From the NCBI GenBank assembly GCA_937139415.1, contig CAKZPS010000030.1, positions 1 to 64,000 on the forward strand: a stretch of 64,000 nt of DNA. Direction: 5' to 3'. Below the pieces are notes generated by a model. That model was not told the DNA's origin. It did no database searches and saw nothing but the letters and a program-made list of their open reading frames with translations. Of this stretch, positions 42,679-60,724 are shown piece by piece (within the stretch, counting starts at the first letter, position 1; every line of letters starts with the position of its first letter). The translations under genes and the position numbers were made by a program. Origin of the DNA: an uncultured bacterium. Its GTDB lineage: Bacteria > Atribacterota > Atribacteria > Atribacterales > Caldatribacteriaceae.

Positions 42679-44373
42679 ATGCTCAGCGATTTAGCAATCG
42701 CCCAAAATGCTGCAATGGAGCCAATTCAAAAAATTGCCGAGACAATGGGGCTCAGAGAAGAAGAGATAGAACTCTACGGGAAGTACAAGGCAAAAGTTTC
42801 TCTTGACGTGTTAGAGCGCCTAAAAACCAAATCCTTGGGAAAATATATCGATGTTACTGCTATTACTCCTACCCCTCTTGGGGAGGGGAAGACAGTGACG
42901 ACCATCGGTCTCTCTATGGCGCTCAATAAAATCGGTAAAAAGAGCATCGTGTGTATTCGGCAACCGTCTCTGGGTCCGGTTTTTGGCATCAAAGGTGGCG
43001 CCGCGGGGGGAGGATACGCACAAGTGGTCCCTATGGAGGATTTCAATCTCCACCTCACCGGAGATACCCATGCGGTAGCCATTGCCCATAATCTCTTGGC
43101 TGCTTTCATCGATAATCACCTCTTCCATGGGAACAAGTTGAATATTGATCCTTTTACCATAAGTTGGCCTCGGGTAGTTGACGTAAGCGACCGGGCTCTT
43201 CGTCACATCGTTATCGGATTAGGAGGAAAAGATAACGGTATTCCTCGGGAAACCGGCTTTGACATTGCAGTGGCTTCTGAGGTGATGGCGATTTTAGCCC
43301 TCACCACCGATCTATTCGACTTGCGGAAACGCTTAGGGAGAATCGTGGTCGGGTATACGAAGGACAAAAGACCGATCACCGCTGAAGACCTCCAATGCGC
43401 CGGGGCGATGACCGTCCTTTTGAGAGAGGCGATCAAACCCAATCTTCTCCAAACTCTGGAGAATACCCCTTGCTTCGTTCATGCGGGGCCTTTCGCAAAC
43501 ATTGCCCACGGTAATAGTTCCATTATTGCCGACCAAATTGCCCTCCGATTGAGCGAGTATGTAGTCACGGAAAGCGGTTTTGGAGCAGACTGTGGAATGG
43601 AAAAATTCATGAATATCAAATGTCGCTATAGTGGTCTTCAACCCGATTGTATAGTGATGGTATGTTCGATCCGAGCTCTCAAAATGCATAGCGGTAAATA
43701 CAAAGTGGTACCCGGAAAACCGCTCGATGCGGAAATGCTCAAAGAGGACTTAGAAGCTCTCATCAAGGGTTCGGAGAATCTGGTGAAGCAAATTGAGAAT
43801 GCCCGCTTATTCGGTGTTCCGGTAGTGGTAGCCATCAACGTGTTCTCCACCGATACCGAAAGGGAAATCGAAACCGTGCACCGGATCGCTCTCGATAGTG
43901 GGGCGTTTGCCGCCGAGGTTTCGGAAGTATGGGCCAAAGGCGGTGACGGTGGACGGGCATTGGCGGAAACGGTGGTGAGAGCATGTGACGAACCCCACCA
44001 TTTCCAATTCCTCTATCCCCTTGACCTTCCCATCAAAGAAAAGATTGAAATTATCGCCACCAAAATCTACGGTGCGGAGAAAGTGGTGTATGAGAATTCG
44101 GCCGAAGACAAGATCAAACAATTCACCGATCTCGGCTGGGCTCATTTATCGATCTGTATGGCGAAAACCCATCTCTCTCTTTCCCATGATCCCAAATTGA
44201 AGGGAAGACCGCGTGGTTTTACCCTCCCCATCAAGGATATTCGTCCCTCTATCGGGGCTGGATTCCTCTACCCTCTGTGTGGGGAAATGCGTACCATGCC
44301 TGGTTTACCCTCGGAGCCAGCAGGAAATAGAGTAGATATCGATGCAACGGGGAAGATTATCGGTCTCTTTTAA
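42679..44373 (+). CDS. fhs: Formate-tetrahydrofolate ligase
   Basis: A 564-residue ATP-dependent synthetase that joins formate to tetrahydrofolate, the first methyl-branch step of the Wood-Ljungdahl pathway. The P-loop is in PTPLGEGKTVTTIGL near residue 60, and KGGAAGGGYAQVVPMEDFNLHLTGD is the long family signature. It heads the array of redox genes, followed after 17 bases by the short HdrA-like gene. FolD and FchA are absent from the window, so the next methyl-branch steps must be encoded elsewhere. Confidence 0.97.
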   Translation: MLSDLAIAQNAAMEPIQKIAETMGLREEEIELYGKYKAKVSLDVLERLKTKSLGKYIDVTAITPTPLGEGKTVTTIGLSMALNKIGKKSIVCIRQPSLGPVFGIKGGAAGGGYAQVVPMEDFNLHLTGDTHAVAIAHNLLAAFIDNHLFHGNKLNIDPFTISWPRVVDVSDRALRHIVIGLGGKDNGIPRETGFDIAVASEVMAILALTTDLFDLRKRLGRIVVGYTKDKRPITAEDLQCAGAMTVLLREAIKPNLLQTLENTPCFVHAGPFANIAHGNSSIIADQIALRLSEYVVTESGFGADCGMEKFMNIKCRYSGLQPDCIVMVCSIRALKMHSGKYKVVPGKPLDAEMLKEDLEALIKGSENLVKQIENARLFGVPVVVAINVFSTDTEREIETVHRIALDSGAFAAEVSEVWAKGGDGGRALAETVVRACDEPHHFQFLYPLDLPIKEKIEIIATKIYGAEKVVYENSAEDKIKQFTDLGWAHLSICMAKTHLSLSHDPKLKGRPRGFTLPIKDIRPSIGAGFLYPLCGEMRTMPGLPSEPAGNRVDIDATGKIIGLF

Positions 44374-44390: not shown

Positions 44391-45362
44391 TTGAAGTGTG
44401 ATGCCCTCATCATCGGTGGAGGAGTAGCCGGTTTAGCGGTAGCCGAGACCTTGCTTCCTTCTCTTCAGGTTACCGTTCTTGAAGAGGAGCGTCTCGGTGG
44501 ATTGGCATGGCAGTTAGGGTGCAAGGCCACTACGGAGTGTTTAGCATGCGGGGTATGTCGATCGCTTGAGATGAAGAGAAAAGCGAGTCGCTTTCCCGTC
44601 TTACTCGGAGAACGAATCACCACCGTGGAACGACAAAACGGAGGTTTCAAAATCACCACCCAAAAAAGAGCTATAGAAACGCGTTTTGTGGTCATTGCCA
44701 CCGGTGCTTCTCCTTTTCCTCCCCAGCGCATGCCTCAATTTGGTTTCGGTACCCTAAAATGGGTGTATAGTGGTTTCGATTTAGAAAAGAAGTTGAATCG
44801 AGAAGGGCTCAATGAATTTGCGCCTTTTCACGAGATCGCCTTCATTCAATGCGTCGGTTCCCGCAATTTCCAAGAGAAACGAGGATATTGTTCTCAAGTG
44901 TGTTGTCGCTACGCCCTGCGGTTGGCGGAGAACTTGCTCTTTCGTTTCCCCCATCTCCATATCGATTTTTACTACATGGATCTGCAAGTGTTTGGGAAAA
45001 AGAGTGAAAAATTGTGGGAGACGAGCGAGAAAGTCAAACTCATCCGTAACCTGCCTTTTGCGGCGGAAGAGGGAAACGGTAAGTTATCAGTAGTTTTCGA
45101 GGGGGAGAGAGGGGTATCCCGAGAGAAGTACGACGCGATCATCCTCTCCGTAGGAATGATTCCCTCATCTGGAACGAAGAGAATGGTTGAACTCCTCCAT
45201 TTGACCTCTACCGTAGAAGGGTTCATCAAGGACTACGGAGGAGGAGTAACCTCGCAAGAGGGGATTTTGGTCTGTGGTACTGCAAGTGGTCCCAAAGACA
45301 TCGAAACGAGTACGAGGGAAGCCCGAATGGTGGGCGAAAAAATTAAAAGGATGGAAAATTGA
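44391..45362 (+). CDS. HdrA-like FAD oxidoreductase, N-terminal half of a split HdrA
   Basis: A 323-residue flavoprotein. The FAD loop GGGVAGLAVAE is at 9-19. A cysteine pair (C50, C53) corresponds to the CAMC block of HdrA, and IQCVGSRNF with YCSQVCCRYALRLAENLL is an unmistakable HdrA signature. The C-terminal FAD contact is LVCGTASGPKDIETSTREA. It lacks the other Fe-S domains and the second half of HdrA, parts of which appear in the next gene. TTG 44391 follows AGAGGGGGG. This looks like a trimmed subunit of the redox complex rather than an independent enzyme. Confidence 0.82.
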   Translation: MKCDALIIGGGVAGLAVAETLLPSLQVTVLEEERLGGLAWQLGCKATTECLACGVCRSLEMKRKASRFPVLLGERITTVERQNGGFKITTQKRAIETRFVVIATGASPFPPQRMPQFGFGTLKWVYSGFDLEKKLNREGLNEFAPFHEIAFIQCVGSRNFQEKRGYCSQVCCRYALRLAENLLFRFPHLHIDFYYMDLQVFGKKSEKLWETSEKVKLIRNLPFAAEEGNGKLSVVFEGERGVSREKYDAIILSVGMIPSSGTKRMVELLHLTSTVEGFIKDYGGGVTSQEGILVCGTASGPKDIETSTREARMVGEKIKRMEN

Positions 45363-45375
45363 GGAGGAAAATGGT

Positions 45376-46785
45376 TTGAAGAGAATTCTTTGGCTCTGTG
45401 GCAAAAAGGGGGATTTCCCCCTTCCCTTCATCCAGGAAATGGAAGAGAAAACCCAAGTGGCAATAGAGGTACGAGAGTGGGAAGAGGATTCCTCCCTTCA
45501 GGGTTATGAGGGCGTATTTCTTCTTGCCGATGCTCTCTCCTTGACTTTCGAAGAAATGATTCGTTTTGCTTTTCAAAAGAGTTTCAATCCTTTGAAAATT
45601 CGTCTCTTTCCTTGGGAAGAGGTAAAAAGACTCTACGGTGTTCCCTCCGCACACAAAACATGGGAACGGTTTTTCGTCGAAGCCTTGGCCACCTTGAACC
45701 ACCCTCTCCCCCTCTCCGTAGTCCATCACTTTCCCGAGAGGCGGGTTCTCCTTTTGCCCCATAGTGCAGAAAATCTCAAACAAGCTCTGGAGCAAGCAGG
45801 TTTTGTGGTTGCATCGCCTCTTGAGTCGGTAACTATTGCTCGCCAAGGGATCAACTTCTCGTTGTATGCTCCTTCCTTTCAAACCACGGTTGGAGCAATA
45901 GTAGTCGTTCCCGAATGGCAAGAGGAAACTCCCTTTCTCATCCCCCAAGAAGTAGAAGAGACCCGCAAAATCCTCCCCCTCTCGTCTTTCTCAACCCTTC
46001 TTCTCCAGAGAGAGTGGCGCAAGCGAACTATCGTTTTCCTCATGCCCAAAGGTAATCAATCTAAAGCAGAGTGGAGAGAGACCTTTCGCTTGACTCAAGA
46101 GCTTGCCGGGGAGAGGAAGGCTCGGGTATGGGTTTTAGCCGAAGAAGTTTTCGTGGCCGGCTCCTCCTTCGAGGCTATGTATCGAGAGGCCCGGGGTGAG
46201 GGAGTGATCTTTGAGAAAGTGGACCTCTCCAAGCTTTCTCTCCGTCCAAGCAGAGATATGCGGCAAATATGGGTAGAATTTCAGAGTGAACGCGACGCTT
46301 ACCCCTTGAGGATTCAAGCCGATTGGGTGGCATACTCGTATAAACGAACCTGTCTTCCTTTCCTCCTTCCCTCACTTTGGAAAGAACCTTTCTTCCCCTC
46401 TTCACTCAACGACCTCGAAAACCCCAACCTGCAATCGTTTGCCTCCTCCCTCCGAGGAATTTTCGTCTCTTCCCAGTACGATGAGGATGATTTCCCTTCT
46501 CTCCTCCAATCTCTCGAGAGTTATTTCCGTGAGGGAATATTTTCCCTCTCATCCGGTGGGACGGTGGACGAGGAGAAGTGTGTGCTCTGCCTCACCTGTA
46601 TGCGCACTTGTCCCTGGAAGGCCGTCGAGATCGATGGGAAAACCCGAGGGAAGAAGGCGAAAATCAATTGGGAGCAGTGTCATCTCTGCGGGATGTGCTT
46701 TGCCTTCTGTCCAGCATCGGCAATTGTCGTGAATAGTCTCCCCCAGCGCGATTTCCTGTTCATACGGGATCTTCGAGGTGAGTGA
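45376..46785 (+). CDS. HdrA-derived iron-sulfur protein with two C-terminal ferredoxin clusters
   Basis: A 469-residue protein with no FAD loop. The central part contains SFEAMYREARGEGVIFEKVD, the counterpart of the YERAKREGIRFVKG segment of full HdrA. The last 70 residues hold two [4Fe-4S] motifs, CVLCLTCMRTCP and CHLCGMCFAFCP. The first 300 residues are divergent. Together with the preceding gene it seems to make up one HdrA split in two, with the flavin in the first part and the electron wire in the second. TTG 45376 follows GGAGGAAA by six bases. Function beyond electron transfer is inferred. Confidence 0.65.
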   Translation: MKRILWLCGKKGDFPLPFIQEMEEKTQVAIEVREWEEDSSLQGYEGVFLLADALSLTFEEMIRFAFQKSFNPLKIRLFPWEEVKRLYGVPSAHKTWERFFVEALATLNHPLPLSVVHHFPERRVLLLPHSAENLKQALEQAGFVVASPLESVTIARQGINFSLYAPSFQTTVGAIVVVPEWQEETPFLIPQEVEETRKILPLSSFSTLLLQREWRKRTIVFLMPKGNQSKAEWRETFRLTQELAGERKARVWVLAEEVFVAGSSFEAMYREARGEGVIFEKVDLSKLSLRPSRDMRQIWVEFQSERDAYPLRIQADWVAYSYKRTCLPFLLPSLWKEPFFPSSLNDLENPNLQSFASSLRGIFVSSQYDEDDFPSLLQSLESYFREGIFSLSSGGTVDEEKCVLCLTCMRTCPWKAVEIDGKTRGKKAKINWEQCHLCGMCFAFCPASAIVVNSLPQRDFLFIRDLRGE

Positions 46786-46790
46786 CGAAG

Positions 46791-47162
46791 ATGAAGATAG
46801 CTTCTCTTGGCTGTGATAAGAGTGGTTTTCCCGCCCTCCTCCGTTTTTTGGCCGAATATCCCCAGTACCGAATGGATGTTACCGCCGTACCGTGTTTGGG
46901 AATGGTGAACGAAGGTATGATGCTTCAAGCTTTTGAGAACGGATACCGCGGTCTTCTCTTAGCCGGTTGTCCCATAGAGAGTTGTCACAATCAGAAGGGG
47001 AGCCATTACGCTCTTCTCAAGGCTGAACGGGTGAATACCCTCCTTGAAGAGGCAAAGCTTCCCATGAGAGTCACATGTGCTCTCTTGACCATGGATAAAA
47101 TTGCCGAGATCAAGAGAGCACTCGATGAACTCCTTCCTTTCCTTAAGGAGAGAGAGCAATGA
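46791..47162 (+). CDS. MvhD-like iron-sulfur protein, divergent
   Basis: A 123-residue relative of MvhD/FlxD, the [2Fe-2S] subunit that hands electrons to HdrA. The blocks VPCLGMVN and GCPIESCHNQKGS match the family's CxG and GCxxxxCHxxxGN motifs. The usual N-terminal CxxC is reduced to C-D-K-S, so a cluster ligand has changed. It is after the split HdrA and before metV, implying that it links the split HdrA to the MetVF reductase. ATG 46791 is preferred to GTG 46782. Its last four bases overlap the metV start. Confidence 0.75.
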   Translation: MKIASLGCDKSGFPALLRFLAEYPQYRMDVTAVPCLGMVNEGMMLQAFENGYRGLLLAGCPIESCHNQKGSHYALLKAERVNTLLEEAKLPMRVTCALLTMDKIAEIKRALDELLPFLKEREQ

Positions 47163-47809
47163 TTGTTGGGGAAAGAAAACCATTATCCATCGTCATCGAA
47201 AATTTGAGCCCGTGGAGAAAAATTTTGGTTTTAGGTTGCGGGACCTGTGTGACGGTATGCATGTCGGGAGGAGAAAAGGAGGCGCAGGAGGTAGCCGCGA
47301 TTTTGCGCCTGCGAGGGTTCCAGGCCCGGGCATTGACCATCGAAAGACAGTGTGAAATGGAGTTTAACCGAAAGTTCGCCGAGGAAATCAATCGTGAAGA
47401 AGTAGTGCTCTCCTTAGCTTGCGGTATCGGAGTACAAATACTCTCCGATCTCTTCCCCCAAAAACCGATCTTCCCGGGGGTGAATACCACTTTCATGGGT
47501 GCTCCCATCGTTCAAGGTTTGTGGGAGGAGCGGTGCTCCGGGTGTGGCGATTGCATCGTTCATCTCTTCGGGAACATTTGTCCGGTGACCCGCTGCGCGA
47601 AAAGCCTCCTCAACGGTCCTTGTGGCGGCTCGCAGAAAGGGAAGTGTGAAGTCAAACCAGAGAGAGATTGTGCTTGGCAACTCATCTACGATCGGATGAG
47701 AGAACAAGGGAGACTGGAAGAGCTCCTCCGCATCCACCCCCCCAAAGATTGGTCATCTTCTCGTTACGGAGGGCAGAGAAAAATGCTTCGGGAGGATGTG
47801 TACCTATGA
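47159..47809 (+). CDS. metV: MetV, zinc/Fe-S partner of methylene-tetrahydrofolate reductase
   Basis: A 216-residue protein corresponding to the MetV subunit found with MetF in acetogens. The N-terminal part has GCGTCVTVCMSGG and an adenosine-like fold, and the C-terminal zinc region has CSGCGDC, CPVTRCAKSLLNGPCGG and GKCEV. MetV is required for activity of acetogen-type methylene-THF reductases and probably conducts electrons to MetF's flavin. It overlaps the metF start in ATGA. Confidence 0.92.
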   Translation: MIVGERKPLSIVIENLSPWRKILVLGCGTCVTVCMSGGEKEAQEVAAILRLRGFQARALTIERQCEMEFNRKFAEEINREEVVLSLACGIGVQILSDLFPQKPIFPGVNTTFMGAPIVQGLWEERCSGCGDCIVHLFGNICPVTRCAKSLLNGPCGGSQKGKCEVKPERDCAWQLIYDRMREQGRLEELLRIHPPKDWSSSRYGGQRKMLREDVYL

Positions 47810-48717
47810 GCTTCCTCCAGAAACTCTTAAAGAGTGGAACCTTTGTGGTGACCGCGGAAGTTGGACCCCCTAAGGGTTGCGAGCGAAGTGTGATCGAAAA
47901 GAAGTGCCGCGAACTCTTCGACTACGTCGATGCCGTCAACGTTACCGATAACCAAACCGCCATCGTTCGTCTGAGTAGCTTTGCCAGTTCTCTCATCGCC
48001 CGAGAATGCGGCGTCGAGCCGGTGATGCAGATGGTGTGCCGTGACCGAAATCGTATCGCCTTGCAGAGCGATTTTCTGGGTGCATGTGCCTTGGGGATCG
48101 AAAATTTCCTCTGTCTCACCGGTGACCATCAGAGCATGGGAAACCATCCCCATTCCAAGAACGTTTTCGATATCGATTCCATCCAACTCTTGCAGATCCT
48201 CTCTGACCTCCGGGACAAGAAGGTGTTCCAGAATGGTGAAGCGGTGAAAGGCGAAATTCGTGCCTTCCTGGGAGCAGGAGAGAATCCTTTTGCCGACCCG
48301 ATGGAATTTCGGGTCTATCGTTTGGCGAAGAAAATCGAAGCAGGTGCCCAATTCATCCAGACTCAGGCGGTATTCGACCTTGAACCCTTCGCGCGTTTCA
48401 TGGAAGAGGTTCGGGCGATGAAACTCCATGAGAGAGCGTTCATTCTCGCCGGGGTGATCCCGGTGAAATCTCTGAACGCCATCCGCTACATGCAGAGTGA
48501 AGTGCCGGGACTGGTGATCCCTCCCTTCCTCGTCGAGCGCATGGAGAAAGCCCGAGATCCTAAGGAGGAGGGTATAGCGATGTGCGTAGAGATCATCGAA
48601 GCGGTCAAGAAAATCGAAGGGGTGAGAGGGGTCCACATCATGGCCATTGCTTGGGAAAGTGTGGTTCCCGAGATTGTGGTACGTAGCGGCCTCTACCCCC
48701 GACCAAAGAGAGGATAG
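47806..48717 (+). CDS. metF: Methylene-tetrahydrofolate reductase
   Basis: A 303-residue (beta-alpha)8 flavoenzyme that reduces 5,10-methylene-THF to 5-methyl-THF. TAEVGPPKG near the N-terminus carries the catalytic Glu, followed by NVTDNQTAIVR, the LCLTGDHQSMG block and the FIQTQAVFDLEPF region typical of MetF. It follows metV with coupled translation and precedes hdrC, repeating the metVF-hdr linkage of Moorella-type acetogens. The longer upstream frame lies inside metV and is not used. Confidence 0.96.
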   Translation: MSFLQKLLKSGTFVVTAEVGPPKGCERSVIEKKCRELFDYVDAVNVTDNQTAIVRLSSFASSLIARECGVEPVMQMVCRDRNRIALQSDFLGACALGIENFLCLTGDHQSMGNHPHSKNVFDIDSIQLLQILSDLRDKKVFQNGEAVKGEIRAFLGAGENPFADPMEFRVYRLAKKIEAGAQFIQTQAVFDLEPFARFMEEVRAMKLHERAFILAGVIPVKSLNAIRYMQSEVPGLVIPPFLVERMEKARDPKEEGIAMCVEIIEAVKKIEGVRGVHIMAIAWESVVPEIVVRSGLYPRPKRG

Positions 48718-48723
48718 AGTAGC

Positions 48724-49218
48724 ATGAAGGAAGTCAGTCAAGCTCATCACTTCAAGTACCAAGTGGCTTCGCGCACCGGAGGAGAAGGGCTCCTCGTGTG
48801 CTTTTCCTGTGGAGTGTGTACTGCAGGTTGTCCGGTTGCAGAAGTAGAAGGGGGATTCAACCCTCGGCGGATCATCCATCAAATCCTCTTAGGAGAGAAA
48901 GAAGAGCTTCTCACTTCCAAGTATTTGTGGATGTGTGTGGGGTGTTACCGTTGTACCGCCCACTGTCCACAGAACGTGGAATTCACGAACATCCTCAAAG
49001 TATTACGGGAAATAGCCATCGAAGAAGGGTACGTGAGTAAAGAATGGAAGGCAATCATCGAAGACCTGGATCGAGAGACCCAGAAACTCCGTCGCAATTG
49101 TATTGATTACCTCTGGGAAAAGAAGGTTACCTCTTTTCCTGAGTATCTCCACCTCTACGCCGATGCCACCAAAGAACTCCCTTGGATGAGGGAGGGAGAA
49201 CCTGATGGAGAACGGTAA
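48724..49218 (+). CDS. hdrC: HdrC-like dicluster ferredoxin subunit
   Basis: A 164-residue protein with two [4Fe-4S] motifs, CFSCGVCTAGCP and CVGCYRCTAHCP, placed about 40 residues apart as in heterodisulfide reductase subunit C. The C-terminal part is helical and would dock on its partner. The normal partner HdrB, with two CCG domains, is missing from the locus, so electrons probably go to MetVF or to another subunit. Its stop overlaps the HdrA fusion gene by 14 bases. Confidence 0.9.
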   Translation: MKEVSQAHHFKYQVASRTGGEGLLVCFSCGVCTAGCPVAEVEGGFNPRRIIHQILLGEKEELLTSKYLWMCVGCYRCTAHCPQNVEFTNILKVLREIAIEEGYVSKEWKAIIEDLDRETQKLRRNCIDYLWEKKVTSFPEYLHLYADATKELPWMREGEPDGER

Positions 49219-52200
49219 TCGTCCTAAGGGCGCGGTGATGATCCTGGGAGGGGGAATAGGAGGAATTCAATCCGCTTTAGACTTAGCCAATGCCGGTTTC
49301 AAGGTATATGTGGTAGAAAAGTCCTTCTCCATCGGTGGTCTCATGGCACGTTTAGATAAGACTTTCCCCACCAACGACTGTGCCATGTGCATTCTCTCTC
49401 CGAAACTGGTAGAGTGTGGAAGGCACCGGAATATCGAAATCCTCTCCTATGCTCAAGTTGAGTCCATCCAAGGTACTCCTGGTCACTTTCAGGTGAGAGT
49501 GAGGAGGAAGTGTCGCTTTGTCGACCCCGAGCAATGCACGGGGTGCGGGGATTGTGCCCAAGTGTGCCCGGTAGAGGTACCCAACGAATTCGACGGATTC
49601 TTGGGGAAACGGAAGGCCATTTATCGCCCTTTCCCCCAAGCCTTCCCCAGCGCTTTCGGGATCGAAAAGAGGGGAGCCCCTCACTGTCAAGCCGCTTGCC
49701 CCTTAGAGCAGAAAGCGGAAGGGTATGTGGCCCTCCTCGGTCACGAACGCTTTGAAGAAGCCCTCCAAGTGATCAAAATGGATAACCCCTTCCCGGGTAT
49801 CTGTGGAAGGGTTTGTCATCATCCCTGTATGGAAGAGTGTCAGCGAGGACTGCTTGACCAAGCCATTGGCATCCCCTACCTCAAGCGTTTTCTCGCCGAC
49901 TACGAGCAAGAGAAAAATTTAACCATCCTTCCTCCCCGACAAGGAGAACGCCCAGAGCGAGTGGCTATCGTGGGGGGAGGGCCGAGTGGTCTCAGCTGTG
50001 CCTACTTTTTGCGGATTTTGGGGTATCAAGTCACCCTCTTTGAGGCTCAAGATCGTTTAGGAGGGATGATGACCTTCGGCATTCCTTCCTACCGTCTCCC
50101 CCGGGAAATTATCGCAGGAGAGATAGAAGCTGTAAAAGCCTTAGGAGTAGAGGTTCTCTTGGGTAAGTGTTGGGGAGATGATTTCCTCCTCGACCACCTC
50201 TTTGCCCAGGAATTCCAAGCCGTGTACCTGGCCTGCGGAGCGTGGACGGGAATGAAAGCAGGAGTGCCGGGAGAAGACCACCCCAGAGTTGTGGATGGAC
50301 TCACCTACCTCTACCGTATGAATAGGGGTGAGAAACTCCCCGAAGCTAAGAAGGTAGTGATCGTCGGAGGAGGGAATGTAGCCATCGACTGTGCGCGTAG
50401 CGCCCTCCGCCACGGTGCTGAACAAGTGGCTCTCTACTATCGTCGCTCCAGAGAAGAGATGCCCGCCCGTCCCGAAGAAATCCAAGAGGCGGAAGAAGAA
50501 GGGGTGGCATTCTTCTTCTGCGCCAGTCCCAAGGAGTTTGTGGAGCAAGACGGTCACTTGGTGATGAAGTGCTACGTGATGAAGCTCTGTGCTCCTGATG
50601 AATCCGGACGGAGAAAACCGGAGATCATCCCGGGGGTAAAACACGAAGTGGAAGCGGACCTCTTCATCATCGCCATCGGACAGAGAGTTTCCCTTCCGGA
50701 GGCTACTCTCCGCCTCACCCCTTCGGGGACGATTATGGTAGATGAGGGGCTCCGCACCTCGCGTCCGGGGGTTTTCGCCGGAGGAGACGCTGTCCTCGGA
50801 CCGGCGACGCTTGTGGAAGCCATTGCCCATGGAAAGAGAGCGGCGTTCTCGATCGATGCCTACCTCTCGAAAAGAGAATTCCACCCCGAGACCCCTTCCC
50901 CTGCGCCCCTTTCCATTCCCTGGGAGCGAAAACAAGAACCTCGGGTGGAACCGAGGAAACTCCCGGTAAGTCAACGTTTGCGAAGTTTTGAAGAGGTTAC
51001 CCAAGGGTATAGTCAGGAAGAAGCAGTAAGAGAGGCCAAGCGGTGCCTCCTCTGTGGAGGATGTTCGGAATGTATGCAGTGTGTCGCGGCGTGTCGCCGA
51101 GGCGCCATTCAACATGAAGAGAGAGAAAGAATCGAAGAAATCGAGGTTGGAGCAGTCATCGTTGCTTCCGGTATGGGGGTTTTCGATCCCACCCAAACCT
51201 ACCGGGAGCTAGGGTACCGAAAGTACCCTAACGTGATCACCAGCCTCGATTTTGAGCGGATTCTCAATGCCTCGGGTCCTTTCCAAGGGAAAGTCGTCCG
51301 ACCGTCTGACGGCAAGACCCCCCGTCGGATTGCCTTCATCCAGTGCGTGGGATCTCGAGATGACAAGCGAGGTCGATCCTACTGTTCCTCGGTATGCTGT
51401 ATGTACGCTATCAAAGAGGCCTTGGTGGCCAAGGAACACCTCTTAGTGGAGAAGAAGGCACACCACAAGGAAATGGTGTGTGCTCCCCACGCTCCTTTTC
51501 ATTCTTCCCAAGACGAAGAAGAACCTATCCTCGAGGTTACCATCTTTGCCATCGACGTTCGGGCCCATGGGAAGGACTTTGAACGGTACTATGAGCGCGC
51601 TAAACGAGAGGGAATTCGCTTCGTGAAGGGAAAAGTGGGGAAAATCCAGGAAGTAAACGGTGGTGATTTAGAAGTTTTCTACACTTCTTGCGACAGCGGG
51701 ATCCAGAGAGAAACCTTCGATCTTGTGGTCCTCTCGGTGGGCTTGTCCCTCACCGAAGAGGAGAAGAATTATTTGGAAAAGCTGGATATTTCCCTTGCTC
51801 CTTGGGAAACGCCTTATCTTGAGGGAATGGCTGCCCTCCGTTCTTCCCGCGAGGGAGTGTGGCTGTGTGGAACGGTCAACGCCCCGAAGGATATCCCCGA
51901 GACGGTTCAAGAGGCGAGCGCTTGTGCCTGTGAAGTAGCCTCGTTCCTCCATCCAGCCCGCTTCAGCGAAGTGACGGAAAAGGAATACCCTCCAGAACAA
52001 GACGTAGCTAACGATCCCGTACGGATCGGGGTATTCATCTGCCGTTGTGGTCTCAATATCGCTGGAGTCGTGAATACCCAAGATTTAGTGGAATGGGCGA
52101 AAAGTTTCCCTGGAGTGGTTTACGCCGAGGAGAATTTGTACACTTGTTCTCAAGATACCCAGGAGAGAATAAAAGAGAAGGTGAGAGAGCATCGCCTCAA

Positions 52201-53680
52201 TCGGGTGGTGGTAGCCTCGTGTTCTCCCCGCACTCATGAATCCCTCTTCCGGGAAACCTTAAAAGAAGTAGGGCTCAACCCTTATCTCTTCGAAATGGCC
52301 AATATTCGGGATCAGTGTTCTTGGGTACACCAAGCTTGGCCACAAGAAGCGAACCAAAAGGCGAAAGACCTCGTAGCCATGGCGATTGCTAAGGTGTCTT
52401 GGCTCGAACCGCTTCAACCGGTGGTCCTCCCGGTAGAAAAGTCGGTTCTCATCATCGGAGGAGGATTAGCAGGAATGATGGCCTCCTTAGAGGCTGCACA
52501 ACAAGGGTTACAGGTTTTCTTAGTAGAGAAAGAGAAGGAATTGGGTGGTCAACTGAGAGATTTCCACCATCGTTTCACCATCGAGGGAGAGGATTTAGTG
52601 GCTCTCGCACGGAAACTCAAAGAGCAGATTCTCGCCCATCCCCACATCGAAGTCATCACCGAAGGAAGAATCTTAGAGAGTAGTGGCTTCGTGGGAAACT
52701 TTGAAACGGTGATCTTTGAGCGAGGAGGAAAGCGAACCATCCGTCACGGCGGGGTCATCATAGCGATCGGAGGAGAAGAGTATCATCCTTCTGACCTCCC
52801 TTACCCGAAGAGAGAGCGGGTTATCACCCAAACGGAACTCGAAAAACTCCTCGAAGATGCTTCTTTCCATCCTCGAAGGGTAGTAATGATCCAGTGTGTC
52901 GGCTCTCGCAATGCCGAGCGCCCCTATTGTAGTCGAGTGTGCTGTCTCTCTGCTCTGAAGAATGTTCTCCGCCTCAAGGATCGTTATCCTGAGGGAGAAA
53001 TTTACCTCCTCTACCGGGACATACGCAGTTACGGTTTATACGAGCGCTACTACCGCGCAGTGCGGGAGAAAGGAGTAGTGTTCATTCCCTTTGCCGACGA
53101 AGCAATGCCTCAGCTTTTGGAGAGAGAGGGTACCCTTTTCGTCCAAGTGGAGAGTGCCCTTCTCGGAGAAACTATTACCCTTGCCCCGGATTGGGTGATA
53201 CTGAGTACCGGGGTGAAAGCCCCTCAAGACGCGCCGGAAATTGCCCAACTCTTCAAAGTCCCCTTGCAACAAGATGGATTTTTTCTCGAAGCCCATGTCA
53301 AACTCCGTCCGGTCGATTTCGCTACTGAGGGAGTGTTCGTCTGTGGTCTTGCCCACGGTCCGAAAACGGCCAGAGAAACTTTGGTCCAGGCCAAGGCTTG
53401 CGTTGCTCGACTCATGACCTTCCTGAGTCAGGACACCATCCATGCCGAGGCGCAAATCGCAACCGTTCAAGAAACTCGCTGTACTGCTTGTGGGGATTGC
53501 GAACTCTTGTGCCAGTACCAAGCGGTGAAGGTCAATCGAGAGAGGAGAGTTGCCGAGGTGAACCCGGCTCTGTGTAAAGGGTGTGGTTTATGCAGTGCGA
53601 CCTGTAAGAGCGGGGCGATCCGGGTCCAAGGGTTTTCCTCTGAGCAAATCGTCTCGGAGGTGGAGTATCTCCTATGGTAG
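49205..53680 (+). CDS. HdrA-GltD-HdrA fusion, multi-flavin electron-bifurcation subunit
   Basis: A 1,491-residue protein with three flavin modules. Residues 10-125 are the start of an HdrA, with FAD loop GGGIGG and a [4Fe-4S] motif (C111, 114, 117, 121). Residues 155-560 are a GltD/NfnB-like NAD(P)H-FAD module, with CQAACPLEQ, GICGRVCHHPCMEECQRG, GGGPSGLSCAY and GGGNVAIDCARSA, inserted into HdrA. Residues 605-915 resume the first HdrA, including IQCVGSRDD. A second complete HdrA runs from FICRCGLN (940) through ASCSPRTHESLF, FAD loop GGGLAG (1084) and two ferredoxin motifs near the C-terminus. This gives one chain that can take hydride from NAD(P)H and split electrons. ATG 49205 overlaps hdrC. 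Confidence 0.9.
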   Translation: MENGNRPKGAVMILGGGIGGIQSALDLANAGFKVYVVEKSFSIGGLMARLDKTFPTNDCAMCILSPKLVECGRHRNIEILSYAQVESIQGTPGHFQVRVRRKCRFVDPEQCTGCGDCAQVCPVEVPNEFDGFLGKRKAIYRPFPQAFPSAFGIEKRGAPHCQAACPLEQKAEGYVALLGHERFEEALQVIKMDNPFPGICGRVCHHPCMEECQRGLLDQAIGIPYLKRFLADYEQEKNLTILPPRQGERPERVAIVGGGPSGLSCAYFLRILGYQVTLFEAQDRLGGMMTFGIPSYRLPREIIAGEIEAVKALGVEVLLGKCWGDDFLLDHLFAQEFQAVYLACGAWTGMKAGVPGEDHPRVVDGLTYLYRMNRGEKLPEAKKVVIVGGGNVAIDCARSALRHGAEQVALYYRRSREEMPARPEEIQEAEEEGVAFFFCASPKEFVEQDGHLVMKCYVMKLCAPDESGRRKPEIIPGVKHEVEADLFIIAIGQRVSLPEATLRLTPSGTIMVDEGLRTSRPGVFAGGDAVLGPATLVEAIAHGKRAAFSIDAYLSKREFHPETPSPAPLSIPWERKQEPRVEPRKLPVSQRLRSFEEVTQGYSQEEAVREAKRCLLCGGCSECMQCVAACRRGAIQHEERERIEEIEVGAVIVASGMGVFDPTQTYRELGYRKYPNVITSLDFERILNASGPFQGKVVRPSDGKTPRRIAFIQCVGSRDDKRGRSYCSSVCCMYAIKEALVAKEHLLVEKKAHHKEMVCAPHAPFHSSQDEEEPILEVTIFAIDVRAHGKDFERYYERAKREGIRFVKGKVGKIQEVNGGDLEVFYTSCDSGIQRETFDLVVLSVGLSLTEEEKNYLEKLDISLAPWETPYLEGMAALRSSREGVWLCGTVNAPKDIPETVQEASACACEVASFLHPARFSEVTEKEYPPEQDVANDPVRIGVFICRCGLNIAGVVNTQDLVEWAKSFPGVVYAEENLYTCSQDTQERIKEKVREHRLNRVVVASCSPRTHESLFRETLKEVGLNPYLFEMANIRDQCSWVHQAWPQEANQKAKDLVAMAIAKVSWLEPLQPVVLPVEKSVLIIGGGLAGMMASLEAAQQGLQVFLVEKEKELGGQLRDFHHRFTIEGEDLVALARKLKEQILAHPHIEVITEGRILESSGFVGNFETVIFERGGKRTIRHGGVIIAIGGEEYHPSDLPYPKRERVITQTELEKLLEDASFHPRRVVMIQCVGSRNAERPYCSRVCCLSALKNVLRLKDRYPEGEIYLLYRDIRSYGLYERYYRAVREKGVVFIPFADEAMPQLLEREGTLFVQVESALLGETITLAPDWVILSTGVKAPQDAPEIAQLFKVPLQQDGFFLEAHVKLRPVDFATEGVFVCGLAHGPKTARETLVQAKACVARLMTFLSQDTIHAEAQIATVQETRCTACGDCELLCQYQAVKVNRERRVAEVNPALCKGCGLCSATCKSGAIRVQGFSSEQIVSEVEYLLW

Positions 53681-54114
53681 AACTCAATGCGTGGGAACCG
53701 AAAATTGTGGCCTTTCTCTGTCACTGGTGTAGTTACGCGGGAGCAGACCTTGCGGGGGTGAGCCGTATCCAATACCCACCCAATATTCGGATCATCCGGG
53801 TTCCTTGTTCGGGTGCCATCAATCCCCTCTATATCCTTAAAGCTTTTCGCGAAGGAGCCGATGGAGTACTCGTGTCAGGGTGTCACCCCGGTGATTGTCA
53901 CTACTTGAGTGGAAACTACTTCGCCCGGAGGAAATTCTTCCTACTCAAGGAACTCCTCATCTTCGCAGGTATCGAGGAAGAACGACTTCAGTTCTCCTGG
54001 GTTTCTGCTTCTGAGGGACAGAAGTTTTCCCAGGTTATAGAGCAAGTAGTAGAAGGAGTGAAAAAGATTGGCCCATCAAAGAAAGGCCTAAAGGAGTTTG
54101 CCTTCCATGTATGA
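53674..54114 (+). CDS. mvhD: MvhD/FlxD [2Fe-2S] electron-transfer subunit
   Basis: A 146-residue protein with the complete MvhD motif set: CHWCSYAGAD (residues 16-25), VPCSGAINPLY, and GCHPGDCHYLSGN. It docks on HdrA and feeds it electrons from hydrogenase, formate dehydrogenase or a flavin subunit. Its start overlaps the HdrA fusion gene by seven bases, so the two are made together. Compared with the copy at 46.8 kb it keeps the N-terminal CxxC. Confidence 0.93.
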   Translation: MVELNAWEPKIVAFLCHWCSYAGADLAGVSRIQYPPNIRIIRVPCSGAINPLYILKAFREGADGVLVSGCHPGDCHYLSGNYFARRKFFLLKELLIFAGIEEERLQFSWVSASEGQKFSQVIEQVVEGVKKIGPSKKGLKEFAFHV

Positions 54115-55045
54115 ACGAGCGTTGACGGAACTTGCGTCAAAAATCCTTGGCGAAGTCGAAGGAATCATCGGATACGCACCGGGCTCCCTCCCTTTCCACA
54201 TGCGTCCCTTCTTGTGTCAGAGAGAGGAAGATATTGCGTGCCTCTCGTTCAACCATTTCGCGCGTCCTAACTTAGCTCGCTACCTCCTCACTCTGGAGAT
54301 GAGAAAGAAAAGAGTAGCCATCGTGGTAAAGGGTTGCGACGCTCGGACGGTGATCGTTCTCCTCAAGGAAGGACAGGTGAAACGGGAGAATCTCTACCTC
54401 ATCGGAGCACCTTGCCACGGAATGGTCAGTGTATCCAAGTTGGAGGAACGCTTTGGGGTACTCTCCCCTCCTGATTTTGTATGGGAAGCCGATACCTTCA
54501 CGTGGCGAGGGGAACGTTTTGCCATACGGGACTTTCTTGAAGACTCTTGCGAACGTTGTGCCTATCCTAATCCCCCCTGGTACGATGCGCTCCTCGGAGA
54601 AGAACTCCCAAAACCTCCGGTTCTACCCGGAGGTAGAGACTACCTGGGGAGAATCAAGGCTCTTCCCCTCGAAAAGCGCTGGGAATTTTTCGCTCAAGAA
54701 ATGGAGAAGTGTATCCGCTGCTACGCCTGTCGAAATTCTTGCCCCCTCTGTTACTGCACAGAGTGCTTTGTCGATCAAACTCGTCCCTCGTGGTTGAGTC
54801 AAGCGGCGACGAGGAACGAAAATCTCTTCTTCCATTTGGGGCGGAGTCTGCACATGGCTGGACGATGTACGGAGTGTGGAGCCTGTGAGCGTGCCTGTCC
54901 CTTAGGTATTCCCATCGGGCTCTTACCCTTATACGTAGAAGAACTTATCCGGGAACATTTCGCCTTCGAGGCAGGGATGAACCTCGATACTCCTGCACCC
55001 CTTTTGACCTATCGGGAAAACGACCCCAACGAGTTCATTCGATGA
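54107..55045 (+). CDS. FrhB/FdhB-like iron-sulfur subunit
   Basis: A 312-residue protein of the F420-dehydrogenase-beta / formate-dehydrogenase-beta group. The N-terminal half has KKRVAIVVKGCDARTVIVLL, a conserved block of the group; the C-terminal half has CIRCYACRNSCP, CYCTECF and CTECGACERACP Fe-S motifs, two or three clusters. No F420 genes are seen, so a flavin or ferredoxin role is more likely, as for FlxB-type proteins. ATG 54107 is preferred with AAAGGAG eleven bases upstream. Its first eight bases overlap mvhD. Confidence 0.82.
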   Translation: MYERALTELASKILGEVEGIIGYAPGSLPFHMRPFLCQREEDIACLSFNHFARPNLARYLLTLEMRKKRVAIVVKGCDARTVIVLLKEGQVKRENLYLIGAPCHGMVSVSKLEERFGVLSPPDFVWEADTFTWRGERFAIRDFLEDSCERCAYPNPPWYDALLGEELPKPPVLPGGRDYLGRIKALPLEKRWEFFAQEMEKCIRCYACRNSCPLCYCTECFVDQTRPSWLSQAATRNENLFFHLGRSLHMAGRCTECGACERACPLGIPIGLLPLYVEELIREHFAFEAGMNLDTPAPLLTYRENDPNEFIR

Positions 55046-55056
55046 GAGGGAGAACC

Positions 55057-56034
55057 ATGAAGGGAAAATTTGTGACTCACGAGCAAGTCTTTACCTGGAT
55101 GGAGAGAGAAAGAGGTCTTGTGGTGATCACGGAAAGAGCACAAAAAAAGTACCACCATCTCCTCCCTTCTCACCTCATCACCGTGAAAACAGCCAAGGAA
55201 CTCTTTTTTTCTCCCTGGGAAGCGGTGTACCGCTATACTCTCCAAGGGAAAACCTGGGTGATCGAGGAAAAAGTGGAACATTCCTCTTTCCCTTCCTTTC
55301 TTGTGCTCTTACCTTGTGAAGCGAAGGCGATTCTTGAAGTCACGGACGTAAACTTCATGACCGAGGACACTCCTGACTTGGGTTATGCCCGAAGGCGGAG
55401 AGGGGTAACCTTGATCATCGTCGGTTGCGAAAGGATCGAGCAAACCTGCTTCTGTTCCTTAGTAGGATGTAGCCCTTTTTGGCGCCACCGCGAGAGCGTG
55501 TTTCTCTTTCCTTGGAAGGGTCATTTCTACCTCGAGGATGGAGAGGAAAAACTCTCCCTTTCCCCTTTCGAAGACCCCCAAAAAGCACAAGCGGTGGAAA
55601 CCTTTTTCGCTGAGACCATCTGTACTTTGCCTTTGCCTCTCCCGGCGAACTTTCCCGAAAAGTTGTACGCGCATTTCGATGATCCCTTGTGGCAGAAGAT
55701 GGCCTGGCACTGCGTGAATTGTGGTGCCTGTACCTACCTCTGTCCCACCTGTTACTGTTTCGATCTCAGTGTGGATGGGAAGCTCCGGGGTTTGACCCTT
55801 CACACCTGGGATAGCTGTATGTTCCCCAAGTTCACCCTTCACGCTTCTTCCCACAATCCCCGTCCTACCGGGAAAGAACGGGTGAGACAGCGGGTTATGC
55901 ACAAATTTTCCTATTTCCCCCTGCGGAACAAATACTATGGATGTGTAGGGTGTGGAGTGTGTCGAGAGATATGCCCAGTCAATTGGGACATTAAAGAGGT
56001 CGTAGAAGGGATGGTGAGGCAGGTTGAACGGTGA
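55057..56034 (+). CDS. Sulfhydrogenase-beta / AsrA / FlxC-like iron-sulfur subunit
   Basis: A protein of about 325 residues. The N-terminal two thirds resemble AsrA and HydB (ShyB) proteins, with LLPCEAKAILEVTDVNFM, GVTLIIVGCERIEQTCFCSLVGCSP. The C-terminal third has CVNCGACTYLCPTCYCFD and CVGCGVCREICPVNWD, two [4Fe-4S] clusters. It pairs with the next gene in many anaerobes to move electrons between NAD(P)H and Fe-S clusters. ATG 55057 is taken; ATG 55042 would overlap the previous stop. The end overlaps the next gene by 11 bases. Confidence 0.85.
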   Translation: MKGKFVTHEQVFTWMERERGLVVITERAQKKYHHLLPSHLITVKTAKELFFSPWEAVYRYTLQGKTWVIEEKVEHSSFPSFLVLLPCEAKAILEVTDVNFMTEDTPDLGYARRRRGVTLIIVGCERIEQTCFCSLVGCSPFWRHRESVFLFPWKGHFYLEDGEEKLSLSPFEDPQKAQAVETFFAETICTLPLPLPANFPEKLYAHFDDPLWQKMAWHCVNCGACTYLCPTCYCFDLSVDGKLRGLTLHTWDSCMFPKFTLHASSHNPRPTGKERVRQRVMHKFSYFPLRNKYYGCVGCGVCREICPVNWDIKEVVEGMVRQVER

Positions 56035-56875
56035 AGTGGGAATCAGAATCAAAGAGAAGAACATTTACGTTCCTACCATGGTCCCCATTCTCGAAGTGAT
56101 TCAAGAGACCAGAGATATTAAAACTTTTCGTGTGCAAAGGCCGAGTTCCTTCTTTTACCATCCCGGACAATTCGCCGAAATTTTTGTCCCGGGGAAGGGA
56201 GAAGCTCCCTTTTCCATTACCTCTTCTCCCCAAGAGGAACGGTTCCTCGAATTCAGCATAAAACGAATTGGCGTAGTGACCGATGCCCTCCACCGCTTGA
56301 ATCCGGGTGATTCGGTGGGGGTGCGGGGACCCTACGGTAATGGGTTTCCCGTATCATCGTTACTTCACTCCTCTCTCCTTTTCATCGGAGGAGGTATCGG
56401 ATTGGCGCCTCTCCGTTCGCTCATTAACTACGTCCTCTCGCCTCAAGAGAGAATAAACTTCCGAGAAATCATTCTCCTCTACGGAGCTCGTACTCCCCAG
56501 GATTTGGTCTTCCAGTGGGAACTCAAGCGTTGGGCAGAACATAGAGACCTCACCCTTTGGGTAACGGTGGACCAAGGAGATTCTTCCTGGTCAGGGATAG
56601 TCGGATTGGTTCCCGAGGTGTTGAAAAAAGTAGTTGAGGTGGAACCAATAGGCTGGAAGAGCATCGTCTGTGGGCCCCCTATTATGATAAAATTCACTAT
56701 CAAAGCACTCCTTGAAATGGGATTTCAAGTAAAGGACATCATTACCACCTTGGAGATGCGTATGAAGTGCGGGGTAGGTAAGTGTGGACGGTGTAACATT
56801 GGTCCCTACTACGTATGTAAGGATGGACCGGTGTTTTCCTACCAAGAGTTACAAGAAATGCCGGAAGAGTATTGA
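56024..56875 (+). CDS. FAD/NAD(P)H oxidoreductase, sulfhydrogenase-gamma / AsrB / FlxA-like
   Basis: A 283-residue flavoprotein of the ferredoxin-NADP reductase superfamily. The FAD motif is PFSITSSP, the nicotinamide loop GGGIGLAPLRSL, and a C-terminal [2Fe-2S] site is formed by CGVGKCGRCN and YVCKDGPVF. With the preceding subunit it forms a diaphorase that injects electrons from NAD(P)H into the Hdr core through MvhD. The start is probably TTG 56024, inside the previous gene, or ATG/ATC starts nearby; the ribosome site is not strong. Confidence 0.88.
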   Translation: MNGEVGIRIKEKNIYVPTMVPILEVIQETRDIKTFRVQRPSSFFYHPGQFAEIFVPGKGEAPFSITSSPQEERFLEFSIKRIGVVTDALHRLNPGDSVGVRGPYGNGFPVSSLLHSSLLFIGGGIGLAPLRSLINYVLSPQERINFREIILLYGARTPQDLVFQWELKRWAEHRDLTLWVTVDQGDSSWSGIVGLVPEVLKKVVEVEPIGWKSIVCGPPIMIKFTIKALLEMGFQVKDIITTLEMRMKCGVGKCGRCNIGPYYVCKDGPVFSYQELQEMPEEY

Positions 56876-59015: not shown

Positions 59016-59042
59016 TGTCCTCAAAAAGGAGGATTGTGTGTT

Positions 59043-59879
59043 TTGCGGATAACTCTTTGGCTCTTCATCTCGATCGCTCTTTTGGCAATGCTTTTGGGGA
59101 GTGGAGCGGGAGGCGAGGAAGAGAAAATTCTCGATTTCAGTCTCTGCAAGGGCTTAGATAAGGACGGTTTTCCCTTAGAGCGGGTGGATAAAGTAAGCAC
59201 CGAAGACGAGCGGCTCCTCTTCTGGGTTTTTGTGCACGATGTTCACAAGGGCGATGAAATGAGGTGGGAATTCCATGGCCCCCAAAAGGAGCTCTACGAA
59301 AGTTCCTTGGTGATTGAAGAAGATAGGGACTACGTGGGGGTACAAGGAGAGCTCAATATCAGTCGCCATCGAAACCGGTTAACTCCAGGGAGTTGGCGGG
59401 CTGAATTTTACCTCAACGGAGAAAAACTGCTTAAAATTCCTTTTACTCTGTTAGAGAGCACCATTCAAGAGAGTAAGAGTTTAGAAGAAGCGGTCAAAAA
59501 AACCGTTGCCCTGCTCAGTGAATTTGGATTTCAAGCCTTAGAAGTGAATGTTTCCGAAGACGATCAGGCGTACATTCGCATGAATATGCTGAGTCATTCA
59601 TTAGATCAAATCTTTTGGAATCAAATTGGCTTAGGCTTTGAAGCACTCCATAGAATTTTCCCTGAAACACCTTGGCTCTTGGTGCAACTCATCTTTGAGG
59701 ATACTTACCTTTTAAGTTTTCAAGTCAAGACCTCCGATTTTGACTATTGGCGCAAAGGATACTTCAACAGTGATGAGTTCTGGAAGAAAAGGGTAAAGCG
59801 ATACGTTTATAGTATAAAGGAGAAAAGAGATTTAGAACCGAGCAAATTCTACGCAGAGCAATTTAACGTGATGTATTAG
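59043..59879 (+). CDS. Secreted protein of unknown function
   Basis: A 278-residue protein. An N-terminal hydrophobic stretch (ITLWLFISIALLAMLLGSGAGG) is a signal peptide or anchor. Next comes a beta-rich domain (residues 30-145) similar in outline to immunoglobulin-like or PEGA domains, then a mixed helical domain with SLEEAVKKTVALLSEFGFQALEVNV. No active-site motif is apparent. TTG 59043 follows AAGGAGG by ten bases; TTG 59034 is too close. It may belong to the same transcript as acsE but has no obvious link to C1 metabolism. Confidence 0.55.
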   Translation: MRITLWLFISIALLAMLLGSGAGGEEEKILDFSLCKGLDKDGFPLERVDKVSTEDERLLFWVFVHDVHKGDEMRWEFHGPQKELYESSLVIEEDRDYVGVQGELNISRHRNRLTPGSWRAEFYLNGEKLLKIPFTLLESTIQESKSLEEAVKKTVALLSEFGFQALEVNVSEDDQAYIRMNMLSHSLDQIFWNQIGLGFEALHRIFPETPWLLVQLIFEDTYLLSFQVKTSDFDYWRKGYFNSDEFWKKRVKRYVYSIKEKRDLEPSKFYAEQFNVMY

Positions 59880-59893
59880 GAAGTGGTGGGGAG

Positions 59894-60724
59894 ATGCGTA
59901 GGATTTTTGAGAAATTCTCTCCCGTCGATTTCCAGTTCATCGCTGAATCGCTGTGTGAAGAAGAGAAAAAACAACCTCAGCTCCTTGCGCTCATTCGTCG
60001 GGATCCAGAATCATTGGATGAAATTCTCAATCACGAGAAACTTCTCAAGCAGGTCGCTTTAGGAAAAGACCTTTTCCTGCGGATAAGTCCGTACCTTTAC
60101 TTTGAACTTCTCTTACGTCGAGCGATCCTCGATATCGAGAGAGAAGCATACACCTTAGAAACCATAGGGTATAAAACCAGAGTTCCGGTTTTCGATCAAA
60201 AGAAGGTTCTTACCGTCTTATCCCAAGAAACGGTCAGAGATTACTTGGTAGAATTATTGGTCTCTTTTGTACGGATTAATAGTTTTACGCTCTACATCCG
60301 CAAAGGAGAGGGTATTTACCTGAAACAGAACATCTCTGACTTCGACCTCGATCTCCTCTCGGAGATGGGGAGGAGAGTTGAAGAGCCGTATCGCTTTATC
60401 TTTCTCAAAAGGGCGGGAGACATTGCCCTCTTTGTGAGTGGTATTTTCCCCGAGCAGCTTTTTGCCCATCATCACCCAAGCCCACTCCACGCTCGAGCTC
60501 ATTGGCTTCGCAAATGGGTCAATCGAGGAGCAGAACTCGAGGAAAAGGGGAGCAGTCTCTATAGAGAGGCAAGCGAAAGCGTGGTCGCTAAAGAGTACCA
60601 TCTCGACACCGTCCTTCATTACCTTGCCGAGAATTTCCCCTTCACCAAAAAACCTCTCAACATTATCACCGACCGCTACCTATGTTTCCGCAAGTACGAT
60701 ATCTTCCATCCCCTCCCAAATTAG
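59894..60724 (+). CDS. Cytoplasmic protein of unknown function
   Basis: A 276-residue, mainly helical, charged protein without signal peptide or membrane helices. It shows histidines in FAHHHPSPLHARAHW near residue 190, which may bind metal. The first 110 residues look like a helical domain, and the rest holds EEPYRFIFLKRAGDIALFVSGIFPE. I do not recognise the family. It follows the secreted-protein gene by 14 bases and shares a 4-base reciprocal stop with hydF. Both genes at the end of the array may form a separate conserved pair. Confidence 0.5.
   Translation: MRRIFEKFSPVDFQFIAESLCEEEKKQPQLLALIRRDPESLDEILNHEKLLKQVALGKDLFLRISPYLYFELLLRRAILDIEREAYTLETIGYKTRVPVFDQKKVLTVLSQETVRDYLVELLVSFVRINSFTLYIRKGEGIYLKQNISDFDLDLLSEMGRRVEEPYRFIFLKRAGDIALFVSGIFPEQLFAHHHPSPLHARAHWLRKWVNRGAELEEKGSSLYREASESVVAKEYHLDTVLHYLAENFPFTKKPLNIITDRYLCFRKYDIFHPLPN

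Follow-up and report, generated by a model that had tools for sequence, protein, structure and literature searches.

The window analysed here is a 64,000-nucleotide stretch (positions 1 to 64,000 of contig CAKZPS010000030.1, assembly GCA_937139415.1) from an uncultured member of the Atribacterota, whose genome, G000, measures 2.32 Mb and is 96% complete; the highest-identity database records carrying the same locus belong to Candidatus Atribacteria and Caldatribacterium. The features described below between 44391 and 56875 lie on its + strand. Three consecutive genes, which are the subject of this work, precede metV and metF, the genes of the MetVF methylene-tetrahydrofolate (THF) reductase. 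P1 (P0001; 44391..45362, TTG start) encodes a stand-alone HdrA-type thioredoxin-reductase (TrxR)/FAD domain of 323 amino acids (aa); P2 (P0002; 45376..46785), starting at TTG 45376 behind a GAGGAGG, encodes a 469-aa protein with the HdrA fold; and P3 (P0003; 46791..47162) encodes an MvhD-like [2Fe-2S] protein, whose ATG at 46791 agrees with the start in relatives, a GTG at 46782 being also possible. They are directly followed by metV (47159..47809; Pfam PF12225, E 4.7e-38) and then by metF (47806..48717; PF02219, E 2.8e-38), with four-base overlaps at the start of both genes (47159 and 47806). The trio is a second HdrA-type unit near MetVF, besides the 1491-aa HdrA encoded at 49205, as the initial annotation of this DNA had suggested.

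Sequence and structure of the three proteins

P1 includes the sequences AFIQCVGSR and CSQVCCRYA, and the initial description of the gene as the FAD half of HdrA only, based on IQCVGSR and CCRYA, holds: both the N-terminal HdrA domain and the ferredoxin are missing, while the TrxR-like FAD domain with the QCxGSR...CSxxCC cluster site, by which the HdrA superfamily is recognised, is present. In PDB sequence searches the second half of P1 matched HdrA structures (E 3e-34), and residues 6-312 matched the 349-aa stand-alone HdrA-like protein 6tjr (E 9e-26); the best structural match of the P1 AlphaFold model (mean predicted local distance difference test, pLDDT, 91.7) in the PDB is 6tjr_A (E 4.9e-28). 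The cysteines of the TrxR-domain [4Fe-4S] site (C154, C167, C171 and C172; 44850..44906) are invariant in 19 Atribacterota rows, and so are those of an additional four-Cys motif, CKAx(3-5)CxxCxxC (C44, C50, C53 and C56; 44520..44558). The latter is present in 33 of the 33 P1 members examined, and the HdrA and Qmo proteins compared contain it only once, inside the GltD insert of locus L057. According to a weak and local alignment of the first domain, C53 falls on Cys197 of HdrA, a cysteine needed to complete the N-terminal cluster in the other subunit (PMC9012536; this and the other papers are cited from the parts of their text that were available).

Profile tests, motif counts and trees were made without the fragments left by contig ends (Atribacterota P2 below 440 aa and P1 below 290 aa). 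A first tree of 58 HdrA-type cores, which did not contain sHdrA, placed all 33 P1 sequences in one group (support 100/99), separate from Qmo proteins, from single HdrA and from both units of tandem HdrA. When sHdrA and 5odc were added and 15 of the 33 P1 rows were dropped, the 18 P1 kept still stood together (99/98) and adjoined the N-units of tandem HdrA, a position that is not firm (92/81); HA_L103_5139_C and all P2 sequences are excluded from both trees. The union of P1 with QmoA, represented by two rows only, was rejected (P value of the approximately unbiased test, p-AU, 0.00016), and that with sHdrA, a single long-branched row, gave a p-AU of 0.30. As a stand-alone HdrA flavin domain, P1 resembles this sHdrA of Hyphomicrobium denitrificans, the protein of structure 6tjr; unlike P1, sHdrA lacks the four-Cys motif in the aligned part, and its partners differ. 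It has been assigned to a minimal class, A0 (PMC12054007).

The second gene had been annotated as a divergent middle part, with YREARGEGVIF, followed by two ferredoxin clusters. Both are present: P2 contains YREARGEGVIF, plus CVLCLTCMRTCP ... CHLCGMCFAFCP, and ends in a 2x[4Fe-4S] ferredoxin domain (Pfam; 46579..46713), which holds its only invariant cysteines. P2 alone gave only ferredoxin-type matches in Pfam, NCBIfam and PDB searches, as would be expected of a protein from some unrelated Fe-S family whose only likeness to HdrA lies in the ferredoxin, an outcome that the initial annotation had itself named as counting against its proposal. This view, taken from the searches with P2 alone, was overturned by profile and fold comparisons and is hardly credible; both P1 and P2 are related to HdrA. 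Indeed, the P2 family profile scored 99.4% against HdrA with the ferredoxin included; without it, the scores were 86.9% against HdrA (E 4e-6) and 98.6% against P2 of other phyla (E 5e-16), and the latter reached 100% against HdrA (E 2e-57, ferredoxins removed), while the controls, three reversed-profile and two MetF comparisons, remained at 0.1-0.3%. The comparison between the P2 and P1 profiles gave 1.1%, so neither protein is a close copy of the other.

The structural model of P2 (pLDDT 82.8) matches HdrA chains over residues 1-462 (7bkb_A, Z 16.2, 454 of 469 residues aligned; 5odc_A, Z 16.1); the best match other than HdrA and 6tjr reaches Z 13.4 and covers residues 120-387 only. The N-terminal, TrxR-like and C-terminal ferredoxin domains of the HdrA fold are thus all recognised in P2, by a match that is loose (root-mean-square deviation, rmsd, 6.5 for 7bkb_A) and in which the N-terminal domain is supported by full-length HdrA chains only. 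Having all the HdrA domains itself, P2 is, as judged from profiles and model, a whole second HdrA and not a half, in which the flavin and cluster motifs are eroded. The GxGxxG motif for FAD was found in none of 19 Atribacterota and none of 7 Syntrophomonadaceae-type P2 rows, and the TrxR cluster motifs (QCxGSR or CxxxCC) are absent from the same 19 rows as well as from the 7 Syntrophomonadaceae-type and 6 other-phyla rows (0/13). Beyond the ferredoxin, even the best-kept Cys column is present in at most 11 of the 19 Atribacterota rows; the window P2 has just C8 and C326 in this region, neither of them conserved. P1, with flavin, and P2, apparently without it, therefore seem to make up an asymmetric HdrA-like pair. 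The strong loss of motifs in P2 would also suit a decay of P2 and P3 into remnants without a role; however, both frames are open and syntenic across the order, and 18 P2 rows share 41 invariant columns, of which 20 lie beyond the ferredoxin, so that decay is extremely improbable.

The P2 sequences of Atribacterota and Syntrophomonadaceae-type loci are so divergent that they were left out of the P2 tree. The six P2 of other phyla formed one group (98/98), for which joining the C-units of tandem HdrA gave a p-AU of 0.38 and joining single HdrA one of 0.056, and which was placed weakly with QmoB (support 71/61); the tree includes two long branches, L075 and L077, and five rows of odd composition.

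P3 matches the FlpD/MvhD profile (Pfam E 1.2e-16; 61.2 bits vs a cut-off of 22.3), and its C11, C38, C63 and C68 are invariant in 18 aligned sequences. The first cysteine of the usual N-terminal CxxC is absent, leaving one Cys only. An MvhD-like gene with an altered CxxC had been noticed at this position from the start; the alteration is real, but it is not special to the locus, because two complete QmoB proteins show the same change.

This likeness extends to the QmoAB proteins of sulfate reducers (L127-L129) as a whole, in which the labour is similarly divided between a flavin unit and a HdrA-ferredoxin-MvhD unit with a single-Cys MvhD variant. The trio could accordingly be a Qmo-like module, P1 being QmoA and P2 plus P3 being QmoB, that exchanges electrons with the membrane quinone pool; QmoB of two deltaproteobacterial genomes also combines the absence of the TrxR cluster motif with a single-Cys MvhD, and P2 does group weakly with QmoB. 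Nevertheless, P1 does not join QmoA but lies in a different clade, the gene partner of the trio is MetVF, and no QmoC exceeds the cut-off in this genome, where the HdrC of the cluster alone matches the soluble part (55.9/300 bits); a Qmo-like role is therefore fairly unlikely. With the TrxR cluster motif lost in the two deltaproteobacterial QmoB, the Qmo proteins offer a comparable case of loss on one side of an HdrA pair; the QmoB fragment of Syntrophus (L129) keeps the motif.

Gene fusions and distribution of the trio

The order Fhs, P1, P2, P3, MetV, MetF, HdrC, HdrA, in some cases followed by MvhD, is kept in 23 Atribacterota loci up to the ends of their contigs; P1 is visible in 21 of them and MetV in 19, the rest being cut by contig ends. 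This conserved order, together with the HdrA matches of P1 (3e-34 and 9e-26), indicates that the locus is not a product of chance. P2 is present in 24 of the 25 genomes of its Atribacterota order, G006 being the exception, and its matches in two genomes outside the order are limited to the ferredoxin. MetV was found in 21/25 genomes of the order vs 0/25 of the other genomes of the phylum (G025-G049, PF12225); among the four genomes of the order without it, a contig end interrupts the locus in three, and the fourth is again G006, which lacks both MetV and P2. The presence of metF has been reported for almost all Atribacterota (PMC11227167).

The P1 clade spans about five phyla, in which the same components are differently joined. 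In Spirochaetes (L077) P1, P2 and P3 are three genes, followed by MetV, MetF and HdrC, whereas Chitinivibrionales (L073) have P1, a fused P2-MvhD, MetV and MetF. In Verrucomicrobia (L074) P1 is followed by a P2 of 705 aa, clearly an HdrA joined to MvhD (PDB matches to HdrA, 7e-49, and to MvhD, 7e-16), with MetV and MetF two genes on. In Kiritimatiellae (L076 and L078) a single gene comprises P1, P2 and P3 (917 and 918 aa); that of L078 is followed by MetV, MetF, HdrC and a tandem HdrA, and the contig of L076 ends soon after. The fused protein was matched at 1e-30 by 11 of 76 genomes around that of L078: a single frame spans nearly the whole of it in G070 (the genome of L078 itself), G133 and G138; P1 and P2 share one 798-aa frame in G140, and the same frame with one stop in G134; the matches in G143, G151 and G172 are limited to the P1 part (33-34%). 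Among 61 genomes around L079 (Syntrophomonadaceae), 9 gave matches, and the seven loci read, from one Syntrophomonadaceae metagenome-assembled genome and six relatives, share a four-gene island composed of a fused P2-MvhD, MetV, MetF and P1. No HdrA, HdrC or AsrA-like gene was found in these seven stretches, where one protein of 581-583 aa matched at a weak 13-16 bits.

The existence of fused genes, which the initial annotation had proposed as a check and which is now confirmed (L076, L078, G133 and G138), could be taken to mean that P1 and P2 are the products of a simple gene fission and reassemble into one ordinary HdrA, of which they had been thought to be the complementary parts; the C-terminal ferredoxin is indeed in P2 and not in P1. 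However, P2 has its own N-terminal, TrxR-like and ferredoxin domains and aligns by itself with a whole HdrA, the fused relatives hold two TrxR-like units in tandem, and the Verrucomicrobia P2 is a full HdrA-MvhD protein beside a separate P1. Fission was rejected on these three grounds and is very unlikely, and the idea of one split HdrA does not stand. The fusion of P1 with P2 in some lineages, and the presence of both wherever a locus could be read whole, suggest instead an obligate pair.

Possible role of the trio at MetVF

In Moorella thermoacetica and Sporomusa ovata an Hdr-type methylene-THF reductase is encoded by MetVF-HdrCBA-MvhD clusters (PMC9430772). The Atribacterota cluster is similar: metVF is joined by a further HdrA unit (48724..53680), made up of hdrC (48724) and a tandem HdrA of 1491 aa (49205), which contains a GltD/NfnB-type insert and in layout and size closely resembles the 1487-aa HdrA of Moorella thermoacetica, likewise with a GltD insert (PMC9430772), and then by MvhD (53674), a Fer4/FrhB-like gene (54098), an AsrA-like gene (55042) and a gene for an AsrB/HydG-like NAD/FAD protein (56024). 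The last four genes (53674..56875) likely constitute an NAD(P)H input module for the cluster, and look like a module of the FlxABCD type. Unlike the Moorella and Sporomusa systems, the cluster has the additional P1-P2-P3 before metV, no HdrB was found, and the genome has no match to CdhC, the acetyl-CoA synthase. PF02754, the HdrB-type CCG family, has 0 matches in this 96% complete genome (the control matched in 12/14). Likewise, the CCG/HdrB pattern occurs in none of 37 trio loci, L079 and L173 being the same place, while the same scan finds HdrB candidates in the HdrABC loci L057, L058, L080, L084, L103 and L131. The spirochaete locus L131 carries HdrA genes of 1016, 1478 and 652 aa side by side, with MvhD, HdrC and an HdrB-like gene.

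A second comparison concerns the tandem or heterodimeric HdrA pairs of anaerobic methanotrophic archaea (ANME), such as HdrA5/6 and HdrA12/13, in which one copy has the N-terminal domain and lacks Cys197, the other lacks the domain and has the Cys197 position, and the C-terminal ferredoxins are complementary (PMC9012536). P1 and P2 resemble such a pair, with three differences: P2 lacks the FAD motif, whereas all ANME HdrA appear to keep the FAD residues (PMC9012536); P1 has a full four-Cys site around the position of Cys197; and P1 forms a clade of its own in the set of sequences compared.

The interpretation that is moderately favoured is that P1-P2-P3 forms an asymmetric HdrA-like unit serving MetVF specifically, as an electron relay without HdrB. 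MetVF is indicated as the partner by the constant place of the trio before MetV, by co-occurrence across the phylum and by the free-standing four-gene form. The unit's single flavin would be in P1, together with two four-Cys cluster sites; P2 would be another HdrA copy, retained because of its shape and its two ferredoxin clusters after loss of the flavin motif and of the other cluster ligands; and P3, with its [2Fe-2S] cluster, would dock to P2. Electrons would pass from P3 to the ferredoxin of P2, to the FAD and clusters of P1, to the MetV clusters and finally to the MetF flavin, and in the reverse direction during methyl-THF oxidation. HdrA acts as a dimer in HdrABC-MvhAGD, where electrons move from MvhD through the C-terminal ferredoxin to FAD (PMC9012536); in the trio these parts would be distributed over P3, P2 and P1. 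HdrB contacts MetF in S. ovata pull-downs (PMC9430772). At MetVF clusters the trio may take the place of HdrB: in Atribacterota it would lead electrons from HdrC, HdrA-GltD, MvhD and the NAD(P)H module to MetVF, and in the Syntrophomonadaceae-type loci it stands without these partners. Three further genomes (G050, G059 and G060) have MetV but neither the trio nor an HdrABC cluster at metV, and thus neither support nor oppose such a substitution.

Alternatively, the MetVF-HdrA complex could have a second bifurcation site in P1, where electrons from NADH or MvhD would be split between MetVF and ferredoxin. The marks of a bifurcating HdrA are E356 and K409 (M. thermolithotrophicus numbering; PMC9430772). 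The glutamate is kept in 33/33 P1, the FAD motif and cluster cysteines are present, and six Syntrophomonadaceae-type members have the lysine (6/33); the K409 equivalent is, however, Arg in the other 27, including this genome, where it is R177 of P1, and the window P1 lacks the ferredoxin insert through which HdrA releases low-potential electrons, an insert kept in P1 of L074 and L077. Bifurcation at P1 is thus quite unlikely, and in Atribacterota, with Arg in the place of the bifurcation lysine, P1 is probably a simple, non-bifurcating relay.

Several observations weigh against the trio as an HdrB-less relay with a single flavin. Five of the 25 genomes of the order encode a PF02754 protein, elsewhere than at the trio in every case (20/25 have none; 12/25 of the other genomes of the phylum have one), and the HdrB pattern used for the loci is a simple cysteine-spacing scan. 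L075, from an unplaced bacterium, has the three-gene trio and no metV on its 9-kb contig. The lysine at the K409 position is kept by 6 of 7 Syntrophomonadaceae-type P1, so the family may include bifurcating members, to judge from this residue. For P2, the Foldseek comparison with seven full-length HdrA rows gave TM values by query of 0.52-0.59 with an rmsd of 8.7-10.3; and, since GxGxx[GA] is kept in 6/6 P2 rows of other phyla, the loss of flavin is not general, while for the Atribacterota P2, where it probably occurred, it is deduced from motifs only.

A further step is proposed more tentatively, namely that the trio together with MetVF makes up a distinct class of MetVF-type methylene-THF reductase, so far overlooked and free of HdrB. 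Its electron donor would be an asymmetric HdrA heterodimer with a single flavin, in which the cluster that normally spans the HdrA dimer interface is rebuilt inside P1 (CKAx(3-5)CxxCxxC). The class would occur in three-, two- or one-gene forms and, in Syntrophomonadaceae, as a four-gene system; with the cluster rebuilt wholly inside P1, the partner P2 could lose its cofactors. MetVF-HdrABC-MvhD clusters and HdrA heterodimers are documented in the literature; the P1-P2-P3 unit, its HdrB-free form and a flavin-less HdrA were not found in the available parts of the literature searched, mostly without subscription papers and without the 2021 review on HdrA by Appel et al. The closest arrangement in the same texts is that of Thermacetogenium phaeum and two other syntrophs, where hdrA and an MvhD-like gene lie by metVF and hdrBC elsewhere. 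The electron donor to MetVF, and the conservation of energy at this step, are a question in acetogens and syntrophs (PMC8760232, PMC9430772), which a compact HdrB-free partner, such as the four-gene Syntrophomonadaceae and one-gene Kiritimatiellae forms, makes testable; moreover, P1 and P2 suggest that one HdrA copy can lose its flavin while the partner keeps one.

Other genes of the cluster

Upstream of P1, the cluster contains a corrinoid protein gene at 41946, whose best NCBIfam match is of the MtgC type and below its cut-off, and the Fhs gene at 42679 (Pfam FTHFS, 1e-263). A methyl-THF:corrinoid methyltransferase is also encoded (NCBIfam PRK07535, over the cut-off), and it is directly followed by two adjacent open reading frames, 59034-59879 (281 aa) and 59894-60724 (276 aa), for which Pfam and NCBIfam gave no match at 0.001. 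MetVF, Fhs, the corrinoid protein and the methyl-THF methyltransferase are thus clustered as a methyl branch without a carbonyl branch. With genes for the corrinoid protein and for this methyltransferase in the cluster, the oxidation or assimilation of methyl groups is likelier than acetogenesis.

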